A DNA stretch of 51,415 nucleotides from Candidatus Mediterraneibacter merdipullorum. Lineage in GTDB: Bacteria; Bacillota; Clostridia; Lachnospirales; Lachnospiraceae. The position numbers and the translations under genes were made by a program. A model generated the notes under the pieces. It ran no database searches and was not told the origin of the DNA. It saw nothing but the letters and a program-made list of their open reading frames with translations. The stretch is from assembly GCA_019117125.1 (NCBI GenBank), contig DXAL01000001.1:1-51415 (forward strand), given 5' to 3'. This document shows positions 21,367 to 34,334 of the stretch, piece after piece; within the stretch, counting starts at the first letter, position 1, and every line of letters starts with the position of its first letter.

Positions 21367-21427
21367 CAGGCTGCATCCGGATTGATATAAAGAGAATATC
21401 AGAAAAAGAAAAAAGGAGCGTATGGTT

Positions 21428-22759
21428 ATGGCAAGATATACCAGAGAGGACATCCTCCGCATGGCGGAAGAGGAGGATGTGGAATTTATCCGGCTGCAGT
21501 TCACAGATATGTTCGGAACGATGAAAAACACGGCGGTCACAGCCGGAAGGCTGGAGCAGGCGCTGGACAATGCGTGCACGGTGGACGCATCCTCCATGGA
21601 AGGATTCTTCCGGGACGAGGAGGAAGAGCTGTATCTCCACCCGGTGACGGACACCTTCTGCATCCTCCCCTGGCGTCCCCAGCAGGGCAAGGTGGCGCGT
21701 CTCATCTGCGACGTGTACCGGGCGGACGGGACGCCCTACCGGGAGAGCCCCCGGCACATCCTGGAGCGTGTGAAGGAACAGGCGGAACAGAAGGGGTATT
21801 CCTTCCAGGTGAACCCGGAGTGTGAATTCTTCCTCTTCCACACGGATGAGAACGGACGCCCGACCACCGTGACCCATGAGCAGGCGGGATATATGGACTT
21901 AAGCCCGGTGGACTTAGGAGAGAACGCCCGCCGGGACATCGTGCTGACGATGGAAGAGATGGGATACGATGTGGCGTCCTCCCATCACGAGATTGCTCCC
22001 GCCCAGCATGAGATAGACTTTACGATGGCAGACGTGCTGGAGACGGCGGACAAGTTCATGACATTCAAGGTGGCGGTGCGCACGGTGGCAAAACGCCACG
22101 GACTCCACGCGACCTTTATGCCCAAGCCCGTGGCAGGGGTGAACGGCTCCGGCATGCATGTGAATATGGCGCTCTGCAAAGACGGGAAGAATGTTTTTGA
22201 GGACCCGGAGGATGAGCTGGGGCTGAGCAGGGAGGCGTACGCCTTTATTGCCGGCATTTTCGCCCACATCAAAGGGATGACGGCGCTGTTCAATCCCCTG
22301 GTCAATTCCTATAAGCGGCTGGTGCCGGGCTTTGAGGCGCCGTCGGATATCACCTGGTCCTCCTCCCAGAGGACGGCGATGGTCAAGGTCCCCGGGGACA
22401 GAAGGAAAGAGCGGGTTGTGGAACTGCGCAGCCCCGACCCATCCGCCGACCCCTACCTGGTCTTTGCCCTCTGTCTGGCGGCAGGGCTGGAAGGAATTGA
22501 GAAAGGGATGGAACTGGCTCCGGAACTTAAAGCAGATATCCGCAGCCTTTCGGAAGATGAGAAAAAGGAGCTCGGCATCCGCAGCCTTCCGGAAAATCTG
22601 AACGAGGCGCTCAACGAGATGGAGCAGGATGCGTGGATCGCGCAGACACTGGGCGGCAGCTTCGCAGAGCATTACCGGAAGAACAAGCGGAGCGAATGGA
22701 AGGATTACAGCCGACAGGTGTCGGATTGGGAACTCTCCCGGTATCTTTACCGCATCTGA
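21428..22759 (+). CDS. glnA: Glutamine synthetase type I (GSI-alpha-like)
   Basis: 443 residues. ATG 21428 is preferred over ATG 21422 because AAGGAG ends nine bases before it and only three before the other. Conserved parts are FTDMFGTMKNTAV, the substrate and metal block NPECEFFLF, SHHEIAPAQHEIDF, HATFMPKPVAGVNGSGMHVN, NSYKRLVPGFEAPSDITW and ELRSPDPSADPYL. The length and the lack of a clear adenylylation-site region suggest the GSI-alpha class of Firmicutes. It assimilates ammonia onto glutamate. It follows gltBD and precedes an ANTAR regulator, an order resembling the glnA-nitR neighbourhood of solventogenic clostridia. No separate promoter-plus-attenuator is visible in its 61-bp leader. 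Confidence 0.95.
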   Translation: MARYTREDILRMAEEEDVEFIRLQFTDMFGTMKNTAVTAGRLEQALDNACTVDASSMEGFFRDEEEELYLHPVTDTFCILPWRPQQGKVARLICDVYRADGTPYRESPRHILERVKEQAEQKGYSFQVNPECEFFLFHTDENGRPTTVTHEQAGYMDLSPVDLGENARRDIVLTMEEMGYDVASSHHEIAPAQHEIDFTMADVLETADKFMTFKVAVRTVAKRHGLHATFMPKPVAGVNGSGMHVNMALCKDGKNVFEDPEDELGLSREAYAFIAGIFAHIKGMTALFNPLVNSYKRLVPGFEAPSDITWSSSQRTAMVKVPGDRRKERVVELRSPDPSADPYLVFALCLAAGLEGIEKGMELAPELKADIRSLSEDEKKELGIRSLPENLNEALNEMEQDAWIAQTLGGSFAEHYRKNKRSEWKDYSRQVSDWELSRYLYRI

Positions 22760-22784
22760 CGGCGCCGGGGCGCAGGCGCACCGC

Positions 22785-22847
22785 ACGGCAGCCGGCACAG
22801 TGTACCTCACGGCAGCCGGCACATCGCACCATACGGCAGCCGGCACA
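22785..22847 (+). repeat. Three 15-bp repeats, period 24, between glnA and the ANTAR gene
   Basis: ACGGCAGCCGGCACA occurs exactly at 22785-22799, 22809-22823 and 22833-22847, separated by two different 9-base spacers. Each copy contains the self-complementary GCCGGC. The block lies in the 132-bp gap after the glnA stop, is part of the presumed transcript, and has no T-run. Confidence 0.93.
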
Positions 22848-22891
22848 GGCTGCGGCAGGAATCTTACAGAAGGGAAGGCGGGGAAGCGTTT

Positions 22892-23449
22892 TTGAGCAGC
22901 ATCATCGTGGCATTACCGAAAATTGAAGACGCAAAACGGGTAGGCAGGATACTGGCAAACCACGGCTTCGGCCACGTCGTCCCCTGCAGCACGGCATCCG
23001 CAGTCTTAAGCGAAGCCGCGGAGGGCGAAAGAGGTCTGGTCATCTGCAGCTGCAGGCTGCCGGATATGTATTACACCGGACTTGCAGAGTACCTGCCCCG
23101 GTACTACGAGCTGCTCCTGCTCGGTTCCAGGAGCGCCCTCAGCGAGGCGGACGGGAGCACCATGTCCCTCCCCATGCCCCTGAAGGTCTACGACCTGGTG
23201 AACACGGTGGAGATGATGCTCTCCCAGATTGAGCGGCGCTATAAGAAAGACCGGAAAGGACCGAAGAAGAGGACCGGACAGGAAGAAAAGGACATCCTTA
23301 ACGCCAAGCGCCTTCTGATGGAGCGCAACCACTTAAGCGAGGAGGCGGCGTACCGCTATATCCAGAAATGCAGCATGGACAGCGGTACGGGAATGGCGGA
23401 GACGGCGCAGATGATACAGATGCTCATCTACGGCGAAGTGGACGGATGA
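22892..23449 (+). CDS. ANTAR-domain antiterminator with pseudo-receiver (NitR-like)
   Basis: 185 residues starting at TTG 22892 behind GGCGGGGAAGCG. The C-terminal part is an ANTAR RNA-binding domain: AKRLLMERNHLSEEAAYRYI then QKCSMDSGTGMAETAQMI. The N-terminal part has a response-regulator fold (SIIVALPKIEDAKRVGRIL, LVICSCRLPDM), but where receivers carry the phosphorylated Asp this one has Ser (ICSCRLP), and the N-terminal acidic pair is absent. Phosphorylation is therefore unlikely; binding of a metabolite or partner protein is more plausible. It lies downstream of glnA and probably couples transcript elongation of nitrogen genes to nitrogen state. A linker rich in Lys and Arg separates the domains. 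Confidence 0.88.
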   Translation: MSSIIVALPKIEDAKRVGRILANHGFGHVVPCSTASAVLSEAAEGERGLVICSCRLPDMYYTGLAEYLPRYYELLLLGSRSALSEADGSTMSLPMPLKVYDLVNTVEMMLSQIERRYKKDRKGPKKRTGQEEKDILNAKRLLMERNHLSEEAAYRYIQKCSMDSGTGMAETAQMIQMLIYGEVDG

Positions 23450-25194: not shown

Positions 25195-25587
25195 TTGGAA
25201 AGTTCTGAGAAATTCTATCTGTGCGACGCAGGTATCCGAAATGCCGTTCTGGGAATCAGGAATATGGATTATGGCAGAGTGTATGAGAATCTGGTCTGTA
25301 TTGAACTGCTCCGCCGGGGCTATAACGTGTATGTTGGGAAATTGTATCAAAAAGAGATTGATTTTGTGGCGCTGAGAGGAAGTGAAAAAACATATATCCA
25401 GGTCAGTGACAATATTGCGGATGAGAAAACGCTTGAAAGAGAATGTTCCCCATTACTGCAGATCCGGGATGCTTATCCTAAAAAGATCATTGCCCGGACG
25501 CGGCATCCCCAATACAGCCGCGAGGGGATTGAAATATATAATATAGCGGACTGGCTGCTACAGGAAGAGGAAAACGACGTGCAATAA
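25195..25587 (+). pseudogene. Remnant of an AAA/DUF4143 ATPase (C-terminal end only)
   Basis: About 130 residues covering only the C-terminal DUF4143 nuclease-like part: [56 protein letters not shown] and [11 protein letters not shown]. The same blocks occur in order in the C-terminal third of the ATPase at 1175-2380 (EKYYLADVTLKYCLLG, LENIVFLEMKRRGYDV, KEIDFIG), so the family is clear. The P-loop and the whole ATPase domain are missing, and the frame opens at TTG directly after a palindrome, so about two thirds of the gene appears deleted. The base composition is AT-richer than putP upstream. It is probably not functional, though a short protein could still be made. Confidence 0.8.
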
Positions 25588-25667: not shown

Positions 25668-26390
25668 TCATCTCCTGCGCCTGTTTATCTGTGCCAGGAT
25701 ATCCGGTATGGCTCTCGTCTCTGCGAAAATCTGATGTTCCGCCTCGTGGATGTCCCACAGGTAGTGGGCGTCGGAACAGCAGATTACATTGCAGTTATCA
25801 AAATACGGATGCTCCCGGCGTATCCGGTGCAGGTTCGCGAAATCATGAAATTCCGCGCAGGAAAAGGTGCTGCCCGGAGGCACGAACCCCAGATTGGACA
25901 GAAGGCTCGAGGAAGACTTGTCCACATGGGCGGGGTAGGCGATGCCGCCGTAGGATGCGGTCATGGGAAATACATCGTCAAAAGAGAGCTCAACTGCATT
26001 GATGAGGAGAAAGGGTTCCGTCTCCTTTACCTGGTCCTTCTCATCCATGACCTGCTGTTTTCCGAAGATGTCTTCCCGGTTCGGTATCTTCTTCAGCCGT
26101 TCGTAGACTGCGGCGTCAAACGCCAGGGCGTTTTCGAGGGCGGGGAACAGGCAGATGACGTGGATTTCTTCTTCCGTCGTCAGTTCCATGCCGGGGATGA
26201 CCGTCACACCGTACGCCTCCCCGTGGTACATGGCGGCGGGACAGTTCCGGCAGGTGTTGTGGTCTGTGAGGGCGATGACGTCCAGTCCTTTGACCGCAGC
26301 CATGCCTACCAGGTTCGCGGGGGTCATGTCGTCATCCCCGCAGGGGGAGAGGCAGGAATGGATATGCAGGTCATAATACAGCGGAATCAT
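25668..26390 (-). CDS. PHP-domain metal-dependent phosphoesterase
   Basis: 240 residues of the PHP family (YciV/TrpH-like). Metal-binding motifs are visible: DLHIHSCLSPCGDDD (HxH), ALTDHNTCRNCPA, the GMELTTEEEIHVICLF glutamate and histidine, AYPAHVDK and CSDAHYL. Members hydrolyse phosphoesters such as nucleotide or histidinol phosphates. The start at 26390 overlaps the preceding DRTGG-like gene (ATGA), so it is the last gene of the sensory-hydrogenase operon. A strong inverted repeat spans its stop codon (25637-25683) without a T-run and may end transcription. A signal-degrading role is possible but unproven. Confidence 0.87.
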   Translation of the reverse strand: MIPLYYDLHIHSCLSPCGDDDMTPANLVGMAAVKGLDVIALTDHNTCRNCPAAMYHGEAYGVTVIPGMELTTEEEIHVICLFPALENALAFDAAVYERLKKIPNREDIFGKQQVMDEKDQVKETEPFLLINAVELSFDDVFPMTASYGGIAYPAHVDKSSSSLLSNLGFVPPGSTFSCAEFHDFANLHRIRREHPYFDNCNVICCSDAHYLWDIHEAEHQIFAETRAIPDILAQINRRRR

Positions 26391-26719
26391 GCCGTCTGCG
26401 CCTGATGGATGAGAAGCGCGGCATCAAAAACGGGCAGTTCCGTGGAAAGGACGGCGACGCCCTCCTCTTTCGCCTTTTCCACGGTGCCCTCATCCAGGGC
26501 GGTCCCCTCTGCCAGCACGATGCACGCCACATCGGTCAGGGCTGCCACGGCAAGGGTGTTCCGGTTTCCCATCACCGTCACCCACACGCTGTCGGCAGGC
26601 GCTTTGCTCATGGCGATGCTCAGGAGGTCGCAGCAGAATATTTTTGAGATATCCCGGTCCGGACATCCTTCTGAGAGCACCTGGAATCCGGCCATGGCGG
26701 ACAGTTCCTTTACTTTCAT
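26387..26719 (-). CDS. DRTGG-domain-like protein 2 (sensory hydrogenase operon)
   Basis: 110 residues from ATG 26719, which lies behind GGAGGAACGAAAGGA and overlaps the end of the hydrogenase-like gene by 4 bp. The protein resembles DRTGG domains: an N-terminal MKVKELSAMAGFQVLSEG, an ICCDLLSIAMSKAPADSVWVT-like core with a VAALTDVACIVLAEG segment, and a C-terminal VAVLSTELPVFDAALLI. A second, related protein (28629-28973) opens the same operon. DRTGG domains occur next to CBS domains and phosphotransacetylase domains and may bind nucleotides. What this stand-alone version does is unknown. Its position suggests it takes part in signalling from the hydrogenase-like protein. Confidence 0.72.
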   Translation of the reverse strand: MKVKELSAMAGFQVLSEGCPDRDISKIFCCDLLSIAMSKAPADSVWVTVMGNRNTLAVAALTDVACIVLAEGTALDEGTVEKAKEEGVAVLSTELPVFDAALLIHQAQTA

Positions 26720-28155
26720 TCCTTTCGTTCCTCCTTCCATTTCTGCCGGGGCTCCGACGGGCGGAGCTTTTCCGGGACTCCGAAAGAAGCCAGCTCGGAA
26801 GTGAGCTCCCGGATATACCGGTGCAGCAGTTCGTTCTCTTCTTCTGAGAGCGGATCGCTGTCTGCGTCTTCTTTCGTCAGGTCGTCAATCTTCCGGGAAA
26901 GGTCTGCGATATTGGACCGCAGGACGTAGATGCAGTCGTTAGGTGTGGCGTCTCCCCGGACGATGTCCTCTGCCAGGGTCTGACAGGTGGGGGCTCCGCA
27001 GGAGCCGCAGTCCAGACCCGGGAACATGGCGGTGAGCTTCTCCACGTCGCTCATCATCCGCAGACTCTCCCGGAATGTGTTCCCGAGGCGGAAGACCGGC
27101 TCGTATTCCACATCGTCCGCCCAGTAGAGGCTGCGCACTTCCCGGGTGTCGGAGAGATGGTTTCTGGATACGGGCTGGTACCGGGTGAGCCGCTTCGTCT
27201 TCGTCATGGCGATGTAGGCGTTTTCCACAGTGAGCGCCCCGCCCACGCATCCGCCGCTGCAGGCGTTGAGTTCCACGAAGACGAGACCGTGGAGCTTTTC
27301 ATCTTCCAGTTCTTCCAGCACTTTCAGGACATTGACGATGCCGTCCGCGGCGAGATAACTGTCGGTGAGGAGCCCGGCGGCCTCCCCGCCGGCATTGCTC
27401 CAGCCGATGCCGATGCGCCCGGAATCCGACAGGGGGGCAAGCTGGCTGTCGTCATGCTTCATGTGGGGCAGCAGGAGCGGATAGACGTCCTTGATGGCAA
27501 TCACGTTGTTGATGCTGCTCTTCTTGATGCCAAGAGGCGCTTTCGCATAAGATACTTTGGACGGACAGGGCGAGATAAAGATGATGCCGATGTCCTCCGG
27601 AGCCAGTCCGGTCTTACGGACAGCCCGGGCGCGCGCAATCTCAGCCGCAGCCTCCACCGGCGCTTTGATGGGGAGAAGCCGGGAGAGGAGGGCGGGGAAT
27701 TTGACCCGTATCAGCCGGATGACGGACGGACAGGCAGAGCTGATGAAGGGAGCTTCGCTGATGTGCTCCTTGATATATGCCCTGGATGCCTCGGATATGA
27801 GTTCGGCGGCGGCGCTCACTTCGTACACGTCGTCAAAGCCCAGTTTCAACAGCGCGTTCAGGACGATGTCGGCGCTGGTCAGGTTGTTGTACTGGGCGTA
27901 GAGCGAAGGCGCGGGCAGCGCCACCGTATATTTGAAATCATTGATGACGGAGAGCGGGTCATAGACCGGTATCTTTGCGTGGTGCGGGCAGTAGCGGATG
28001 CAGAGCCCGCAGTCGATGCAGAACTTGTCGATGATATGCGCCTTCCCGTTGTGCACCCGGATTGCCTGCGTCGGACAGTGTTTTATGCAGTTGATGCATC
28101 CCTGGCATCTGGATTCCCAGAGGCGGACGGAACGGATGAATTTATTGTCGCTCAT
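26716..28155 (-). CDS. Putative sensory [FeFe]-hydrogenase-like protein (HydS-like)
   Basis: 479 residues from ATG 28155. N-terminal two-cluster ferredoxin domain: CQGCINCIKHCP and CIDCGLCIRYCP. The H-cluster domain has three divergent motifs: SSACPSVIRLI (L1), SPCPSKVSYAK (L2) and ELNACSGGCVGG (L3). In L1 the first cysteine of the catalytic TSCCP form, the proton-relay position, is Ala, while the cluster-binding Cys next to Pro remains; as I recall, sensory HydS proteins show this change. A C-terminal Fe-S domain (DCGSCGAPTCQTLAEDI) and a charged helical tail follow; there is no PAS domain. It shares an operon with an anti-sigma-type ATPase and two DRTGG-like proteins, divergent from hydABC. 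I infer an H2 or redox sensor. Confidence 0.85.
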   Translation of the reverse strand: MSDNKFIRSVRLWESRCQGCINCIKHCPTQAIRVHNGKAHIIDKFCIDCGLCIRYCPHHAKIPVYDPLSVINDFKYTVALPAPSLYAQYNNLTSADIVLNALLKLGFDDVYEVSAAAELISEASRAYIKEHISEAPFISSACPSVIRLIRVKFPALLSRLLPIKAPVEAAAEIARARAVRKTGLAPEDIGIIFISPCPSKVSYAKAPLGIKKSSINNVIAIKDVYPLLLPHMKHDDSQLAPLSDSGRIGIGWSNAGGEAAGLLTDSYLAADGIVNVLKVLEELEDEKLHGLVFVELNACSGGCVGGALTVENAYIAMTKTKRLTRYQPVSRNHLSDTREVRSLYWADDVEYEPVFRLGNTFRESLRMMSDVEKLTAMFPGLDCGSCGAPTCQTLAEDIVRGDATPNDCIYVLRSNIADLSRKIDDLTKEDADSDPLSEEENELLHRYIRELTSELASFGVPEKLRPSEPRQKWKEERKE

Positions 28156-28205
28156 AGATGCCTTTCTCCTTCCTTGTGGTGTGAAGAGGGTCCTGACAGA
28201 GAGGT

Positions 28206-28628
28206 TCACAGGTATACTTTCATGGTGATGGTCGTCCCTTTCCCGATGACCGTGCGGATGTCCATCTCGTCGCTGAAGCGCTTCATATTCGGGAGCCCCA
28301 TGCCGGCGCCGAATCCGAGGGAGCGCACTTCCTCGCGGGCAGTGGAGTAGCCTTCCTGCATCGCCTTCTCTACGTCCGGGATACCCGGTCCGGTATCGGC
28401 GAGGACCATGGTGATGTCGCTGTCTGAGATGGTGACGGTGATGGTCCCTCCGTCTGCGTGGATGACCATATTGATTTCGCCTTCGTACATGGCGATGGCG
28501 ACCTTGCGGATGGCTTCGCTGTTCACGCCGAGCATCTTCAGTTTGTTCTTGACGGAACTGCTCGCCTCCCCCGCGCGGGTAAAGTCGTTCCCGTCGATGA
28601 CATAGGTAAAGATAAGCTGATCGCCCAT
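28206..28628 (-). CDS. Anti-sigma regulatory factor-type ATPase (RsbW/SpoIIAB-like)
   Basis: 140 residues with a GHKL ATPase fold: the N-box region AIRKVAIAMYEGEINMVIHA, the G1 box LADTGPGIPDVEKAM, a G2 region GFGAGMGLPNMKRFSDEM and the final GKGTTITMKV. Such proteins are serine kinases that hold a sigma factor or phosphorylate an anti-anti-sigma protein. No STAS partner or sigma factor is encoded in the window. The start at 28628 directly follows the DRTGG-like gene's stop and has GGGGAGGTGC ahead. It lies 50 bp upstream of the hydrogenase-like gene. I infer that it carries the sensor's output to transcription or to another protein. Confidence 0.85.
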   Translation of the reverse strand: MGDQLIFTYVIDGNDFTRAGEASSSVKNKLKMLGVNSEAIRKVAIAMYEGEINMVIHADGGTITVTISDSDITMVLADTGPGIPDVEKAMQEGYSTAREEVRSLGFGAGMGLPNMKRFSDEMDIRTVIGKGTTITMKVYL

Positions 28629-28973
28629 TCACGCACCTCCCCGCAGTCCGTTCCCGTAGAGGATGCCGCAGGTCGTGAACATATAGTGCTCTGTCGCAAG
28701 GACGGCGATGGATTTGCCCCTTGCCAGCGCGAGCATGTCCTCATCCGGCATCTTGCCGCGGACAAAGATGATACAGCAGATATCGAGCATCTCCGCAGTG
28801 CGCACCACCTGGGGATTGCACAGCCCGGTGATGAGCACGGAACATTTGCCGCAGAAGGCGAGCACATCGCTCATCATGTCGGCGGAAAAGACGTATTGGA
28901 CATCCACGTCGGCATGTTCTTTCCCGTAAAGAAATTTGGCGCCGAGGACTTCCTGCATTTCTCTGATTGTCAT
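28629..28973 (-). CDS. DRTGG-domain-like protein 1 (first gene of sensory hydrogenase operon)
   Basis: 114 residues, start at 28973 behind AAAAGGAGACACT. It has the same architecture as the protein at 26387-26719: an N-terminal MTIREMQEVLGAKFLYG, a middle SVLITGLCNPQVVRTAEML with the hydrophobic ICCIIFVRGKMPDEDMLALA, and an end SIAVLATEHYMFTTCGILY. Such small DRTGG-like proteins are recurrent companions of clostridial hydrogenase clusters. No catalytic residues can be assigned. Six cysteines are present, four in the second half, so redox sensitivity is possible. The promoter at 29042-29070 lies about 70 bp upstream. Confidence 0.7.
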   Translation of the reverse strand: MTIREMQEVLGAKFLYGKEHADVDVQYVFSADMMSDVLAFCGKCSVLITGLCNPQVVRTAEMLDICCIIFVRGKMPDEDMLALARGKSIAVLATEHYMFTTCGILYGNGLRGGA

Positions 28974-29041
28974 AGTGTCTCCTTTTTGATAAATCTGTAA
29001 ATTATAGATACAATATGGAAATCTGGTTGCTTATTTCTGTC

Positions 29042-29070
29042 AGTATAACATTTACATATTTAAAAAGCAA
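29042..29070 (-). promoter_or_regulatory. Predicted promoter of the sensory hydrogenase operon and AT-rich divergent region
   Basis: Minus strand: TTGCTT (29070-29065), 17 bases, TATACT (29047-29042). The whole 308-bp gap 28974-29281 separates the two hydrogen operons and is AT-rich. TTGCA (29074-29078) and TGCAA (29086-29090) form a small inverted repeat next to this -35. For the rightward genes only weak candidates are visible, for example TATGAT near 29178. Confidence 0.55.
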
Positions 29071-29281: not shown

Positions 29282-29776
29282 ATGGCAGCAAAGAAAGGTA
29301 CAGTCCCGTTTTCCGGGACGAAAGAGCAGGAAGAGGCTCTCATGAAAGTAATCGAAGAGCTGAAGGACGAAAAAGGCGCCCTCATGCCTATCCTGCAGAA
29401 AGCCCAGGACATCTACGGCTATCTTCCATATGAAGTGCAGAAGATGATATCGGATAAGACCGGAATCCCGATGGAGAAGATTTACGGCGTCGCCACGTTT
29501 TATTCGCAGTTCACCATGAGTCCGAAGGGGCGTTACCGGATATCCGTCTGTCTCGGCACAGCATGCTATGTCAAGGGCTCCGGGGACATCTACAATGCCC
29601 TGATGGAGAAGCTGGGCATCGTGGGCGGCGAGTGTACGCCGGACGGGAAGTTCTCGCTGGATGCGTGCCGCTGCGTCGGCGCCTGCGGACTGGCGCCGGT
29701 CATGATGATTAACGAGGAAGTCTACGGCAGGCTGACGGTAGACGATATTGACGGCATCCTGGCAAAATACGAATAG
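29282..29776 (+). CDS. hydC: Bifurcating hydrogenase subunit HydC (NuoE-like)
   Basis: 164 residues of the NuoE family. The N-terminal helical part includes EELKDEKGALMPILQKAQDIYGYLP and the family stretch MEKIYGVATFYSQF. The thioredoxin-like [2Fe-2S] domain has four cysteines: CLGTAC, then CRCVGAC. In trimeric hydrogenases HydC couples NADH-linked electron flow to HydB. Start 29282, with GGAGGTTGAAGA ahead. It leads the rightward operon, 3 bp before a HATPase gene. The stray 'DACRCVGACGLAP' block is the usual second half of the [2Fe-2S] site, so the protein looks complete. Confidence 0.94.
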   Translation: MAAKKGTVPFSGTKEQEEALMKVIEELKDEKGALMPILQKAQDIYGYLPYEVQKMISDKTGIPMEKIYGVATFYSQFTMSPKGRYRISVCLGTACYVKGSGDIYNALMEKLGIVGGECTPDGKFSLDACRCVGACGLAPVMMINEEVYGRLTVDDIDGILAKYE

Positions 29777-29779
29777 CCT

Positions 29780-30340
29780 ATGATGCCGGAACTCTCTCTG
29801 AACATCCTGGACATCGCCGAAAATTCCGTGCGCGCCAAAAGCTCTCTCATCGAGATTACCGTCTCAATCCGGCATGCGGACGACACACTGCGCGTCCTCA
29901 TCCGGGATGATGGATGCGGGATGAGCAAAGAAGAACTGGAACAGGTGCAGGACCCTTTTTACACCACGCGGACGACGCGGAAGGTGGGACTGGGGATACC
30001 TTTCTTCCGGCAGGCGGCGCTGGCTGCGGGCGGGAGCTTCCGGATGGATTCAGAAAAAGGAAAAGGGACGACGGTAAGTGCAGTATTTGGATTATCCCAC
30101 ATAGACAGGATGCCGCTGGGGGATATCAGCTCCACAGTCTATACGCTCATCGTCTTTCACGAACCCATTGATTTCAGATATACCTATGAATACGACGACA
30201 GGAGTTTTGTGCTCGATACGCGGGACATGCGGGAGATGCTCGGAGCGGGGATTTCCTTTCAGGAACCGGAGGTCGCGGCATTCATCCGGGAATATCTGGA
30301 GACGAACAAAGCGGAGACAGACGGCGGAGATGAAATCTGA
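29780..30340 (+). CDS. HATPase-domain protein without kinase dimerisation domain
   Basis: 186 residues. A GHKL ATPase fold is visible: N box LNILDIAENSVRAKSSLIEI, G1 box RDDGCGMSKEELEQ, a lid with DPFYTTRTTRKVGLGIPF and the GKGTTVSAVF G2 box. No histidine-containing dimerisation domain or membrane segment precedes it. The last 80 residues (IDFRYTYEYDDRSFVL) match nothing I recognise. Similar ATPases recur between nuoE- and ferredoxin-like genes of clostridial hydrogenase operons. It might act with the anti-sigma-type ATPase and HydS-like protein encoded divergently. Two adjacent ATGs (29780, 29783) are possible starts; neither has a strong ribosome binding site, so coupling to hydC is likely. 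Confidence 0.82.
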   Translation: MMPELSLNILDIAENSVRAKSSLIEITVSIRHADDTLRVLIRDDGCGMSKEELEQVQDPFYTTRTTRKVGLGIPFFRQAALAAGGSFRMDSEKGKGTTVSAVFGLSHIDRMPLGDISSTVYTLIVFHEPIDFRYTYEYDDRSFVLDTRDMREMLGAGISFQEPEVAAFIREYLETNKAETDGGDEI

Positions 30341-30364
30341 ACAGGCAGGAAAAGGAGGAACCAT

Positions 30365-30748
30365 ATGAAATCTCTTGAAGAATTACGTGCAATCCGGGAA
30401 AAGATGCAGGGTAAAGTCGGTGTGCGCGCGGAGAATGAAGACCAGATACGGGTGGTCGTCGGGATGGCGACCTGCGGTATCGCAAGCGGCGCGCGCCCGG
30501 TGCTGACAGCGCTCTCGGACGCCGTGCAGGAACAGAATTTAAGCGAGAAAATCTGTGTGACACAGACCGGATGCATCGGGCTGTGCCAGTACGAGCCCAT
30601 CGTTGAAGTGATGGAGCCGGGGAAGGAAAAAGTGACCTATGTAAAGATGACGCCGGAAAAAGCGCTGGAAGTCTTAAGGATACATCTGCTGGGCGGACAG
30701 GTCGTGGCAAAATACACCCTGAGCGCAGCGCAGGACGGCAACGCATAG
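30365..30748 (+). CDS. Thioredoxin-like [2Fe-2S] ferredoxin of the hydrogenase operon
   Basis: 127 residues. The fold is that of thioredoxin-like [2Fe-2S] ferredoxins: RVVVGMATCGIASGARPV supplies the first cysteine, and TQTGCIGLCQYEPIVEV the CxxxC pair. Only three cysteines are visible in the usual four-cysteine pattern, so the cluster may be incomplete or use another ligand. Start 30365, behind AAAGGAGGAACCAT. It lies 31 bp before hydB. In several clostridia this small protein is named HymA-like and is presumed to carry electrons for, or help assemble, the HydABC enzyme. Confidence 0.85.
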   Translation: MKSLEELRAIREKMQGKVGVRAENEDQIRVVVGMATCGIASGARPVLTALSDAVQEQNLSEKICVTQTGCIGLCQYEPIVEVMEPGKEKVTYVKMTPEKALEVLRIHLLGGQVVAKYTLSAAQDGNA

Positions 30749-30779
30749 AAATATACAGAGACAAAGGAGGTCAGAACAT

Positions 30780-32567
30780 ATGTATCGTTCACATGTACTC
30801 GTCTGCGGCGGGACCGGATGCACCTCTTCCGGGAGCCAGCGGATACGGGAACGGCTGGAAAAAGAGATTGCCGTGAACGGACTCTCGGAAGAAGTCGGCG
30901 TGGTAAAGACCGGCTGCTTCGGGCTGTGTGCCCTGGGTCCCATCATGATCGTATATCCGGAAGGAACCTTCTATTCCATGGTGAAGGAGGAAGACATCCC
31001 GGAAATCGTATCCGAACATCTCCTCAAAGGAAGGGTCGTAAAACGTCTCCTCTATGATGAGACCACAAAGACGGATAAAATCATCCCGCTCAACGAGACG
31101 AATTTCTATAAAAAGCAGCACCGGGTGGCGCTGAGGAACTGCGGCGTCATCAACCCGGAGAATATCGAGGAATACATCGGCACAGGCGGATACGAAGCCC
31201 TCGGCACAGTCCTCACGGAGAAGACGCCGGAGGATGTCATCCAGATACTTCTGGACAGCGGGCTTCGGGGACGCGGAGGCGCGGGATTCCCCACCGGGCT
31301 CAAGTGGAAATTTGCGGCGGCAAACGACGCGGACCAGAAATACGTCTGCTGCAATGCGGACGAAGGCGACCCGGGCGCATTCATGGACCGCTCCATCCTG
31401 GAGGGCGACCCCCATGCGGTGCTGGAGGCGATGGCGATCGCCGGATATGCCATCGGGGCGTCCCAGGGATATATCTATGTCCGCGCCGAATATCCCATCG
31501 CGGTCAAGCGTCTGGAGATTGCCATATCCCAGGCGAGGGAGTACGGACTTCTGGGAAAAAATATCTTTGATACGGGATTTGACTTTGACATCGAACTGCG
31601 GCTGGGAGCCGGAGCGTTTGTCTGCGGCGAGGAGACGGCGCTGATGACGTCCATCGAGGGCAACCGGGGCGAGCCCCGTCCGCGCCCGCCTTTCCCGGCG
31701 CTCAAAGGTCTGTTCCAGAAGCCGACTATCTTAAACAACGTGGAGACTTACGCAAATATCCCACAGATTATCGTCAACGGACCGGAGTGGTTCGCTTCCA
31801 TGGGGACGGAGGGCTCCAAGGGAACGAAAGTGTTCGCCCTGGGCGGCAAGATACATAACACCGGTCTGGTGGAAGTGCCCATGGGTACCACGCTCCGCGA
31901 GATTGTAGAAGAAATCGGCGGCGGCATCCCCAACGGAAAGAAATTCAAAGCCGCGCAGACCGGCGGACCTTCCGGCGGCTGCATCCCGGCAGAACACCTG
32001 GATGTGCCCATCGACTATGACAATTTAAAGAAGATTGGCTCCATGATGGGCTCCGGCGGACTCATCGTCATGGACGAGGACACCTGCATGGTGGATATCG
32101 CGAAGTTCTTCCTTGAGTTTACGGTAGACGAATCCTGCGGCAAATGCACGCCCTGCCGCATCGGCACGCGGCGTATGCTGGAGATACTGGAAAAGATAAC
32201 CAAAGGGCAGGCGACCATGGACGACCTGGATAAGCTGGAAGAGCTCTGCTGCCACCTGCAGACCAATTCCCTGTGCGCCCTCGGTCAGACGGCGCCCAAT
32301 CCGGTGCTTTCCACCCTGCGGTATTTCCGGGATGAGTATATCGCGCACATTGTCGACAAGAAATGTCCGGCAGGCGTCTGTAAAGACCTGCTCCACTATA
32401 AGATTGACCCGGATAAATGTAAGGGATGTACGCTCTGCGCAAGGACCTGTCCGGCGGACGCCATCATCGGCAAGGTGAAGGAAGTACATATGATTAATCC
32501 CGAAAAATGCGTGAAATGCGGCGCCTGCATGGAAAAATGCCGGTTCGGCGCAATCTACAAAGAGTAA
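30780..32567 (+). CDS. hydB: Bifurcating hydrogenase subunit HydB (NuoF-like flavoprotein)
   Basis: 595 residues. N-terminal thioredoxin-like [2Fe-2S] domain: CGGTGCTSSGSQ and KTGCFGLCALGP. The NuoF core has SGLRGRGGAGFPTGLKW (FMN/NADH), CNADEGDPGAFMDRSILEGD and FVCGEETALMTSIEG. The [4Fe-4S] motif is SCGKCTPCRIGTRR. A two-cluster ferredoxin tail (CKGCTLCARTCPADAI and CVKCGACMEKCRFGAI) is typical of HydB rather than of NuoF. The subunit holds FMN and takes part in electron bifurcation between NADH and ferredoxin. Start 30780 behind AAAGGAGGTCAGAACAT; 15 bp separate it from hydA. Confidence 0.96.
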   Translation: MYRSHVLVCGGTGCTSSGSQRIRERLEKEIAVNGLSEEVGVVKTGCFGLCALGPIMIVYPEGTFYSMVKEEDIPEIVSEHLLKGRVVKRLLYDETTKTDKIIPLNETNFYKKQHRVALRNCGVINPENIEEYIGTGGYEALGTVLTEKTPEDVIQILLDSGLRGRGGAGFPTGLKWKFAAANDADQKYVCCNADEGDPGAFMDRSILEGDPHAVLEAMAIAGYAIGASQGYIYVRAEYPIAVKRLEIAISQAREYGLLGKNIFDTGFDFDIELRLGAGAFVCGEETALMTSIEGNRGEPRPRPPFPALKGLFQKPTILNNVETYANIPQIIVNGPEWFASMGTEGSKGTKVFALGGKIHNTGLVEVPMGTTLREIVEEIGGGIPNGKKFKAAQTGGPSGGCIPAEHLDVPIDYDNLKKIGSMMGSGGLIVMDEDTCMVDIAKFFLEFTVDESCGKCTPCRIGTRRMLEILEKITKGQATMDDLDKLEELCCHLQTNSLCALGQTAPNPVLSTLRYFRDEYIAHIVDKKCPAGVCKDLLHYKIDPDKCKGCTLCARTCPADAIIGKVKEVHMINPEKCVKCGACMEKCRFGAIYKE

Positions 32568-32582
32568 GGGAGGGCAGTGAGA

Positions 32583-34334
32583 ATGGAAAATGTGAATTTG
32601 AAGATAAACGGCCTGAATGTAACTGCACCCGCAGGTTCCACGATACTCGAGGCAGCGCAGGCAGCGGGCATACGCATCCCCACCCTGTGCTATCTGAAAG
32701 AAATCAACGAAATCGGCGCGTGCCGCATGTGCGTGGTGGAAGTAAAAGGCGCCCGCAATCTGGTGGCAGCCTGCGTCCATCCGGTATCCGAGGGCATGGA
32801 GGTGCTGACCAATACAAAGCAGCTTCTGGACTCCAGGCGCAGGACGCTGGAGCTGCTCCTGTCCAACCATGACAAGAAATGCCTCTCCTGCGTGCGCAGC
32901 GGCCACTGCGAACTCCAGGAGCTCTGCCAGGAGCTGGGCGTGACGGATGAGGACTATTTCGCAGGGGAATCGCCCCATTACGAACTGGACGAGAGCGCGG
33001 CGCACATGGTGCGGGACAACAACAAGTGCATCTTGTGCCGCAGATGTTCCGCAGTGTGCGAGAAGGTCCAGAGTGTCGGCGTCATCGGACCGAACAACAG
33101 AGGGTTTGCGTCCTTTATCGGCACGGCGTTTGACCTGGGGCTGGGAGATACGAGCTGCGTATCCTGCGGTCAGTGCATCGCCGCCTGTCCCACAGGCGCG
33201 CTCTACGAGAAGAGCAGTATCGACGACGTCCTTGCGGCAATCGCAGATGAGACAAAACACGTGGTCGTACAGCCGGCTCCCTCTGTCCGCGCGGCGCTGG
33301 GCGAAGAGTTCGGCTATCCCATGGGGACCGATGTGGAAGGCAAGATGGCGGCGGCTCTGAGGCGGATTGGGTTTGACAAAGTATTTGATACGGATTTCAG
33401 CGCGGACCTCACCATCATGGAAGAGGCCCACGAGTTCCTGGACCGGGTGAAAAACGGCGGCGTCCTCCCGATGATGACGTCCTGCTCGCCCGGATGGATC
33501 AAATACTGCGAGCACTACTATCCGGACCAGCTTGCACACCTGTCCAGCTGCAAGTCTCCCCAGCAGATGTTCGGCGCCGTCACAAAGACCTATTACGCAG
33601 AAAAGACGGGCATCGCCCCGGAAGATATCGTCTGCGTCAGCGTGATGCCCTGTACGGCGAAAAAATTTGAAATCAAGAGGGACGACCAGGATGCAGCCGG
33701 CGTCCCGGATGTGGATATCTCCATCACTACCCGGGAACTGGCGCGGCTCATCCGGAAGGTGGGCATCGATTTCCGGAGCCTGCCTGACGAGGGATTCGAC
33801 GACCCGCTGGGCGAGTCGACCGGAGCCGGCGTGATTTTCGGAGCTACCGGAGGCGTGATGGAGGCGGCGCTTCGCACGGCGGTGGAAGAGCTCACCGGAG
33901 AGACTCTTGAGAAAGTGGAATTCATGGAAGTGCGCGGCACCGAAGGCATCAAGGAGGCAACCTACCACGTGGCAGGCATGGACGTGAAAGTGGCGGTGGC
34001 ATCCGGGCTCTCCAACGCGAAGCTCATCATGGACAAAGTGCGCTCCGGCGAGGCGGACTACCATTTCATCGAAATCATGTGCTGCCCGGGCGGCTGCGTC
34101 AACGGCGGCGGACAGCCACAGATACATGCAGATGTGAGGAACTTTACGGACGTGAAGGCGATCCGTGCGAAAGCGCTGTATGACAACGACGCGGCGAAAC
34201 CGCTCAGAAAGTCCCATGAAAATCCGTCCATCCGGAAACTCTATGAAGAGTATCTCGGGGAGCCGGGAAGCGAGAAGGCACACCACCTTCTTCACACGAC
34301 GTACGTGGAGCGCATCGTCAACCGGCAGTTGTAA
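32583..34334 (+). CDS. hydA: Bifurcating [FeFe]-hydrogenase catalytic subunit HydA
   Basis: 583 residues from ATG 32583 (GGGAGG ten bases ahead; the in-frame GTG at 32577 is less likely). Order: [2Fe-2S] domain (CYLKEINEIGACRMC), His-Cys3 [4Fe-4S] site (CLSCVRSGHCELQELC), two [4Fe-4S] ferredoxin sites (CILCRRCSAVC, CVSCGQCIAACP), then the H-cluster domain with TSCSPGWI (L1), MPCTAKKFE (L2) and EIMCCPGGCVNGGGQP (L3), and the small-subunit tail with HHLLHTTY. L3 has Cys where most enzymes have Ala before the ligand Cys. It reduces protons to H2, or the reverse, in the HydABC complex. Confidence 0.96.
   Translation: MENVNLKINGLNVTAPAGSTILEAAQAAGIRIPTLCYLKEINEIGACRMCVVEVKGARNLVAACVHPVSEGMEVLTNTKQLLDSRRRTLELLLSNHDKKCLSCVRSGHCELQELCQELGVTDEDYFAGESPHYELDESAAHMVRDNNKCILCRRCSAVCEKVQSVGVIGPNNRGFASFIGTAFDLGLGDTSCVSCGQCIAACPTGALYEKSSIDDVLAAIADETKHVVVQPAPSVRAALGEEFGYPMGTDVEGKMAAALRRIGFDKVFDTDFSADLTIMEEAHEFLDRVKNGGVLPMMTSCSPGWIKYCEHYYPDQLAHLSSCKSPQQMFGAVTKTYYAEKTGIAPEDIVCVSVMPCTAKKFEIKRDDQDAAGVPDVDISITTRELARLIRKVGIDFRSLPDEGFDDPLGESTGAGVIFGATGGVMEAALRTAVEELTGETLEKVEFMEVRGTEGIKEATYHVAGMDVKVAVASGLSNAKLIMDKVRSGEADYHFIEIMCCPGGCVNGGGQPQIHADVRNFTDVKAIRAKALYDNDAAKPLRKSHENPSIRKLYEEYLGEPGSEKAHHLLHTTYVERIVNRQL

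Follow-up and report, generated by a model that had tools for sequence, protein, structure and literature searches.

The question raised by this locus is how a hydrogenase without a PAS domain could pass on a signal. It is posed by a five-gene operon of Candidatus Mediterraneibacter merdipullorum, located at positions 25668..28973 of the window, the stretch of 51,415 nucleotides (contig DXAL01000001.1) that was analysed. The operon encodes an [FeFe]-hydrogenase of the Group D type (HydS), an ATPase of the GHKL family (HAT1), two small DRTGG proteins and a PHP-fold phosphoesterase. How a PAS-less Group D enzyme could relay a signal was also considered by Land et al. 2020 (PMC8163306). We propose, with a probability of roughly 0.55, that HydS senses H2 (or the H2/ferredoxin redox state) in the cytoplasm and directly gates HAT1, a Ser/Thr kinase of the RsbT/SpoIIAB type, with the DRTGG proteins as partners, the PHP enzyme as a reset function, and hydrogenase and redox genes as output. 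The proposal is supported by the position of HAT1 beside HydS in 68 of 69 loci of the phylum set described below, by natural fusions, and by invariant residues in the ATP site of HAT1.

Organization of the operon

The genes are read from 28973 to 25668 in the following order.

28629..28973, minus strand: DRTGG-1 (DRT1), a stand-alone DRTGG-fold protein of 114 amino acids; Pfam DRTGG, 33.3 bits
28206..28628, minus strand: HAT1, a GHKL Ser/Thr-kinase-like ATPase (RsbT/SpoIIAB type) of 140 amino acids; Pfam HATPase_c_2, 46.5 bits
26716..28155, minus strand: HydS, a Group D (M2e) [FeFe]-hydrogenase of 479 amino acids; Fe_hyd_lg_C, 100.4 bits, and C-terminal FeS domain, 47.4 bits
26387..26719, minus strand: DRTGG-2 (DRT2), 110 amino acids from the ATG at 26719; Pfam DRTGG, 31.7 bits
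25668..26390, minus strand: PHP-fold metal-dependent phosphoesterase of 240 amino acids; Pfam PHP, 36.1 bits

DRTGG-1 and HAT1 abut, HydS overlaps DRTGG-2 and DRTGG-2 overlaps the PHP gene, and the gap of 50 bases between HAT1 and HydS contains a ribosome-binding-like stretch. The start of HydS was refined to 28155; that of DRTGG-2 is most likely at 26719, in a reading frame open from 26740. All five proteins pass the curated Pfam cut-offs, and the genes are present as given in the preliminary description. Its reading as a sensory-type [FeFe]-hydrogenase operon with two DRTGG proteins and a PHP enzyme is borne out by these matches and by the literature, in which Group D enzymes next to bifurcating hydrogenases and kinases are already published (PMC3561251, PMC8163306) and the Group D enzyme TamHydS of Thermoanaerobacter mathranii is treated as putatively sensory (PMC8924675). 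The operon is a real member of an already known kind; what is added here are synteny counts and natural fusions.

Cofactor ligands and proton path of HydS

HydS has two N-terminal [4Fe-4S] domains, an H-cluster domain and a C-terminal FeS domain with Cys383, Cys386, Cys391 and Cys408. There is no PAS among its Pfam domains, as was first noted. The cubane and bridging cysteines of the H-cluster are Cys142, Cys197, Cys299 and Cys303, and apart from one gap these four ligands, already recognized in the preliminary description, are invariant in 155 relatives. Ala141 aligns with the proton-relay residue Cys299 of CpI, while Ser195 and Asn297 occupy the positions of Met353 and Met497. The alanine is a class-wide trait: position 141 in the relatives is Ala (117), Ser (29), Thr (4), His (2), Asn (1), Val (1) or a gap (1), so that none of the 154 residues found is Cys.

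An alternative proton path of Group D was proposed in TamHydS, formed by Glu252, Glu289, Ser249 and Asp265 (PMC10407848). In HydS, Glu258, Glu295 and Asp271 correspond to Glu252, Glu289 and Asp265, and are kept in 149, 155 and 146 of the 155 relatives, respectively; the moderately conserved Ser249 is replaced by Ala255. TamHydS has low activity, yet it interconverts H+ and H2 reversibly and with raised H2 affinity (PMC8163306). Of the two possibilities in the initial suggestion of slow or non-catalytic H2 contact, a non-catalytic HydS is unlikely because the alanine is a Group D trait, the alternative proton path is largely conserved and TamHydS is reversible; by this analogy slow catalysis is likelier than none. 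The genome (2.31 Mb, 94% complete) encodes a HydF that scores above its cut-off, and the H-cluster can therefore be assembled.

The domain composition and ligands place HydS in Group D (M2e) by sequence, and its nearest named relatives are from Mediterraneibacter and other Lachnospiraceae. In a phylogeny of 140 sequences, with the HydA of the window as root, Group D and a second class of fusion proteins (see below) form a clade with support 0.952, separate from a Group C clade with support 1.0. The node of Group D alone reaches only 0.40 in this tree, in which TamHydS itself is not included.

Conservation of the five-gene module

With E 1e-40 as threshold, the HydS alignment finds a match, in a few cases a partial one, in 120 of the 299 genomes of the phylum set. 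Gene neighbourhoods were taken from 75 stretches of 74 genomes, mostly one per genus. The named set consists of the best 80 of 562 confirmed loci and is hence biased to close relatives. Partners were counted with strict profiles in the 69 loci of each set that have room on both sides, with fusions scored as present. Looser first profiles had drifted (439 hits for DRT1), and one PHP assigned with them (in locus L176) is HAT2, a second GHKL ATPase.

In the phylum set HAT1 is found in 68 loci (one fused), DRTGG-2 in 65 (two fused), PHP in 61 and DRTGG-1 in 57; all four partners keep their order and strand beside HydS in 55 of the 69. The corresponding numbers for the named set are 68 for HAT1, 67 for DRTGG-2, 66 for PHP and 69 for DRTGG-1, with all four in 65. 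The five-gene arrangement is more than chance, and the operon is strongly conserved. With a loose profile, a HAT2 match was located no more than 9 kb from HydS in 59 of the 64 named loci and 58 of the 60 phylum loci whose flanks were long enough.

DRTGG-1, DRTGG-2 and PHP are all missing from one family of four loci (f81: L150, L157, L164, L178). In the two of these that were read by eye (L157, L164), HAT1-HydS adjoins OmpR-like response regulator genes. Six of the 120 Group D genomes (G028, G104, G154, G173, G223, G295) lack an Fe_hyd_lg_C match at the threshold of E 1e-40, to which this search was restricted. As a separate observation made by eye, the electron-transfer genes downstream of the module in G104 (L145) seem to lead to a formate dehydrogenase-like gene, not to hydA.

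Natural fusions

In locus L173, HAT1 and HydS form a single protein of 626 amino acids, and in L125 and L146, which belong to one family, DRTGG-2 is joined to the C-terminus of HydS. The initial statement that no kinase is fused to HydS holds for the window operon and fails for such relatives. When matches were scored by the HAT1 portion of the L173 fusion, 586 candidates yielded 146 proteins at E 1e-15. The best 120 of these 146 were classified by rank and length, and the numbers below refer to them; one fragment (P0155) was kept out of the tree. There are at least 32 HAT1-HydS fusions (P0121-P0152, query included) and at least 73 proteins of a second class, of 480 amino acids or more (in the range P0153-P0240), with HAT1 attached to a hydrogenase-like module; for one of the latter (P0217) the precomputed Pfam list has no Fe_hyd_lg_C. 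At least 14 further proteins of about 345-385 amino acids (P0221, P0225-P0233, P0235, P0237-P0239) have a CBS-CBS-HAT1 arrangement, one of them source-named Bacteroides/Prevotella. This arrangement ties the kinase family to the nucleotide-sensing type of domain that partners DRTGG in pyrophosphatases. In one source database such fusions are already named after their domains. HydS-DRTGG-2 fusions number 11 at E 1e-10 among 1015 candidates, query included, and nine carry a DRTGG entry in their precomputed Pfam lists.

The two hydrogenase-containing classes differ in the active site. The first class keeps all H-cluster cysteines, the equivalent of Lys358 in 31 of 32 and that of Glu252 in 32 of 32. 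The second class also keeps the four cysteines (Cys503 in 72 of 73), with Lys358 changed to Gln in 65, Gly306 to Ser in 67 and Asp265 to Thr or Ser in 66 of the 73; Glu289 stays Glu in 62, and the poorly aligned Glu252 column has Glu in 6. A [2Fe] subsite is unlikely in the second class because Lys358, Gly306 and Asp265 are replaced, and these proteins are probably redox rather than gas sensors. Their source names, among the matches listed, include Planctomycetota, Spirochaetota, Myxococcales and an FCB group.

When 270 HAT1 sequences are placed in a tree, each fusion class forms one clade (support 0.995 and 0.999) on a weak backbone (0.47). The HydS tree, with 16 of the 32 first-class and 17 of the 73 second-class proteins, places the first class inside Group D and the second as its sister or just inside. 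Two independent HAT1 fusion events appear likely from the HAT1 tree, which falls short of showing them.

The HAT1 kinase family

HAT1 was at first described as an RsbW-like anti-sigma factor. This is too specific. HAT1 scores 62.1 bits against the SpoIIAB model (cut-off 135) and 24.4 bits against the RsbW model (cut-off 145), and matches a solved SpoIIAB structure at E 1.5e-9. With the HAT1 family profile, the SpoIIAB of the same genome and RsbT both reach 61.5 bits vs 21.4 bits for RsbW, the RsbT and RsbW sequences being provisional. RsbT is also the source name of five of the 120 fusion relatives listed, all of the second class.

HAT1 shares the E-x3-N, GPGI-D, GYST and G-x-G boxes of the RsbT, SpoIIAB and RsbW kinases. 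Residues at 100% in 72 phylum-set sequences, in an alignment obtained with the loose profile, are Glu49, Glu51, Asn53, His57, Asp78, Gly80, Gly82, Thr96, Gly105, Gly107 and Gly109. Glu49 and Asn53, which we take to be the base and the Mg-binding residue by analogy with SpoIIAB, are invariant with the G boxes in both stand-alone and fused forms. The difference from the known kinases lies in the surroundings: HAT1 is linked or fused to a hydrogenase module or to CBS domains, and no STAS or sigma gene was found nearby.

A dedicated STAS or sigma partner elsewhere in the genome, for which a search had been advised, was not obtained either. The only STAS protein over its cut-off is SpoIIAA, encoded in a spoIIAA-spoIIAB-sigF operon with its own SpoIIAB and SigF, and HATPase_c_2 is over its cut-off in HAT1 and SpoIIAB alone; these family searches did not extend to other sigma factors. 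Among 30 conserved neighbour clusters, not all of which were identified, no sigma or STAS gene was recognized.

The DRTGG proteins and the PHP enzyme

Both DRTGG proteins are over the Pfam cut-off, and the fold was checked on DRTGG-1. Its AlphaFold2 (AF2) model (predicted local distance difference test score, pLDDT, 91.2) is most similar in the PDB to 2ioj, the DRTGG protein AF1212 (template modelling score, TM, 0.84), followed by the DRTGG domain of a CBS-pyrophosphatase (3l2b) and HPr kinase (1knx). A hidden STAS fold in DRTGG-1 was considered and rejected in view of these matches. The fold is that of the DRTGG domain of CBS-pyrophosphatases, of AF1212 and of the N-domain of HPr kinase; the operon proteins differ in being stand-alone, with 110-114 amino acids, and in having their own D-[LM]-[LM]-S motif, with an invariant serine, plus an invariant threonine. 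Asp32, Ser35, Thr49, Gly50, Leu51 and Gln55 are invariant in 57 DRTGG-1 sequences, and Asp31, Ser34, Thr48 and Asn54 are at 100% in 68 DRTGG-2 sequences of the phylum set, again aligned with the loose profile.

In the PHP enzyme the metal-ligand set His9, His11, His44, Glu69, His77, His155, Asp207 and His209 is invariant in 60 sequences. The AF2 model (pLDDT 97.7) is closest to the PDB folds of the phosphoesterase BAD_1165, EndoQ, TM0559 and RNase AM. Metal ligands and fold are shared with RNase AM, EndoQ and BAD_1165. The operon enzyme differs from them in its signature, which reads S-P-C with the aspartate replaced; the usual form is presumably S-D-G.

Genomic context

Other features of the window around the operon are as follows.

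29041..29070, minus strand: probable sigma-A-type promoter of the HydS operon, spotted by eye (TTGCTT, 17 bases, TATACT)
29282..34334, plus strand: hydC-HAT2-2Fe2S-hydB-hydA, a bifurcating-type hydrogenase operon divergent from the HydS operon
29780-30340, within the hydABC operon: HAT2, a second GHKL ATPase without other domains

The TTGC and TATACT-like promoter elements recur in several, not all, of 22 aligned relatives. The divergent hydC-HAT2-Fd-hydB-hydA operon is a likely target or electron partner of the HydS operon. Elsewhere in the window, 21422-23449 holds a glutamine synthetase-like gene (recognized by eye) and then an ANTAR-domain protein of 185 amino acids. A short open reading frame at 25195-25587 resembles, by eye, the C-terminal region of what would be a longer ATPase-type protein, and may be a remnant. 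Fe_hyd_lg_C occurs at four places in the genome: HydA, HydS, a Group C HydS with a PAS domain, and one further. The Group C gene (L204:9308-12207, G000:C21) is directly followed by a SpoIIE-type PP2C phosphatase gene.

Comparison with characterized systems

The closest described enzyme is TamHydS (PMC8163306, PMC10407848, PMC13104023). Like HydS, it has no Cys at the Cys299 site, a Ser at the Met353 position, the Glu252/Glu289/Asp265 path, a C-terminal FeS domain and no PAS, and its gene is close to a bifurcating hydrogenase and a histidine kinase-like ATPase. Differences are Leu at the Met497 position (Asn in HydS), Ser249 (Ala in HydS), and the flanking AraC regulator described for TamHydS, which is absent from the window operon; two DRTGG genes and a PHP gene are described for the latter. 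Group C (M2f) enzymes, such as T. maritima HydS, T. saccharolyticum HfsB and R. albus HydS, are likewise presumed H2 sensors near a bifurcating hydrogenase, and for R. albus HydS a Ser/Thr kinase-type signalling partner was proposed (PMC5707799). Deletion of HfsB alters adhE expression (PMC5707799), a Group C precedent. Group C proteins differ in having PAS and in forming the separate clade, and the copy in this genome lies elsewhere, before the PP2C gene. Among the papers listed in literature searches that included few subscription papers, we recognized none on the DRTGG and PHP partners or on HAT1-HydS and HydS-DRTGG-2 fusions. That the pathway is not worked out, as stated at the outset, agrees with published Group D work.

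Possible signalling mechanisms

In the mechanism that we favor, H2 would react at the slow H-cluster of HydS, and the changed state of HydS would be passed by protein contact to HAT1 within one complex. A secondary structure change induced by H2 is published for TamHydS. HAT1 would then phosphorylate or bind another protein, for which the two DRTGG proteins are the strongest candidates. They are of STAS-like size and have an invariant Ser and Thr; in addition, the gene for DRTGG-1 immediately precedes that of the kinase, an arrangement also seen for SpoIIAA, and DRTGG-2 can be fused to HydS. The PHP protein, presumably an active phosphoesterase, would probably serve to reset the system or to strip DRTGG of a bound nucleotide, and the output would act on hydrogenase and redox genes. 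A candidate on the output side is Rex. In 17 of the 75 phylum loci, the strand of the HydS module also carries a rex-like gene (matched at E 1e-15 to Rex of L154, at L154:12292-12945; two were checked against Rex family models), where an assumed density of one per 2.5 Mb would give about 0.5. In L135, L149, L161 and L166 the middle of this gene falls about 1.15 kb upstream of where the HydS reading frame starts.

Several observations weigh against this mechanism. DRTGG-1 is missing from 12 and PHP from 8 of the 69 phylum loci, so neither is obligatory, and the invariant Ser and Thr of the DRTGG proteins may be structural. In TamHydS the C-terminal cluster was not reduced by H2. Each of the 32 HAT1-HydS fusions has Gly, Ser or Ala where HAT1 has Glu51. 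As most members of the second fusion class lack the [2Fe]-site lysine, the shared and possibly older input may be redox and not H2. The 80 named loci contain no rex-like gene. Nor does the window have a Rex consensus site when up to 3 mismatches are allowed (chance would give 0.57), so the link to Rex rests on the neighbourhood in other genomes.

Two alternatives would place HAT1 in a different circuit. In a classical anti-sigma circuit, as with RsbW or SpoIIAB, HAT1 would bind a sigma factor and be freed by a STAS-type anti-anti-sigma factor. The resemblance of HAT1 to the SpoIIAB model and structure and the spoIIA operon elsewhere in the genome would fit, but HAT1 stays under both family cut-offs, SpoIIAA as the sole STAS protein over the cut-off is already paired with SpoIIAB and SigF, the conserved neighbour clusters (some unidentified) offer no recognized sigma or STAS gene, and DRTGG-1 resembles DRTGG and not STAS structures; we consider this circuit distinctly unlikely. 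A split partner switch appears slightly less probable again. Here the SpoIIE-type PP2C encoded after the PAS-bearing Group C HydS would oppose or assist HAT1, and each arm of a single phospho-switch would be driven by its own H2 sensor. Such a switch has a parallel in Bacillus, where RsbT activates the PP2C RsbU (PMC12143880). The Group C HydS and PP2C genes, adjacent in this genome, also lie as a pair in the 10 kb flanking the Group D module at 10 of the 80 named loci, two of which are truncated by the end of the stretch. PP2C relatives, counted at E 1e-10 irrespective of adjacency to a Group C HydS, are present in 94 of the 299 phylum-set genomes. They co-occur with Group D (both 66, Group D only 54, PP2C only 28, neither 151; odds ratio 6.6), also when the count is confined to the 227 genomes in which an [FeFe]-hydrogenase is matched at E 1e-40 (66/48/28/85; odds ratio 4.2, p 5e-7), with relatedness ignored in both ratios. 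However, 54 of the 120 Group D genomes have no PP2C, 28 genomes have PP2C without Group D, and no shared substrate was identified.

Two further alternatives were weighed. HAT1 and HAT2 could modify or assemble HydABC itself, with HydS as a redox or H2 gauge and without a transcriptional output. The tight linkage to hydC-HAT2-Fd-hydB-hydA and the second ATPase within that operon speak for such post-translational control. It is rendered rather unlikely, though less so than the two circuits above, by the six Group D genomes without an Fe_hyd_lg_C match at the threshold used, by the f81 loci that lack the other partners, two of them beside apparent response regulators, and by the rex-like neighbours in the 17 phylum loci. 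HydS might also be an auxiliary hydrogenase that mainly turns over H2 for metabolism, the small proteins being assembly or stability factors. Its FeS and H-cluster ligands and most of the proton path are indeed intact, but the low activity of the characterized homologue TamHydS, the invariant ATP site of HAT1 and the fusion of HAT1 to HydS in relatives make this the least probable of the explanations considered.

Implications

Within the favored mechanism, in which HydS gates HAT1, a further idea can be put forward tentatively: a partner switch without STAS, in which an RsbT-type kinase on a hydrogenase is gated by H2 and DRTGG takes the place of STAS. Where the [2Fe] site has been lost, in Planctomycetota, Spirochaetota and Myxococcota, this design could persist with the gas sensor turned into a plain FeS redox kinase. 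The fusions point to physical partners, and the single-chain proteins allow a direct assay of H2-dependent kinase activity. If the proposed gating is true, fermentative gut and soil bacteria would tune their hydrogen metabolism via a kinase that is wired straight to an H-cluster.

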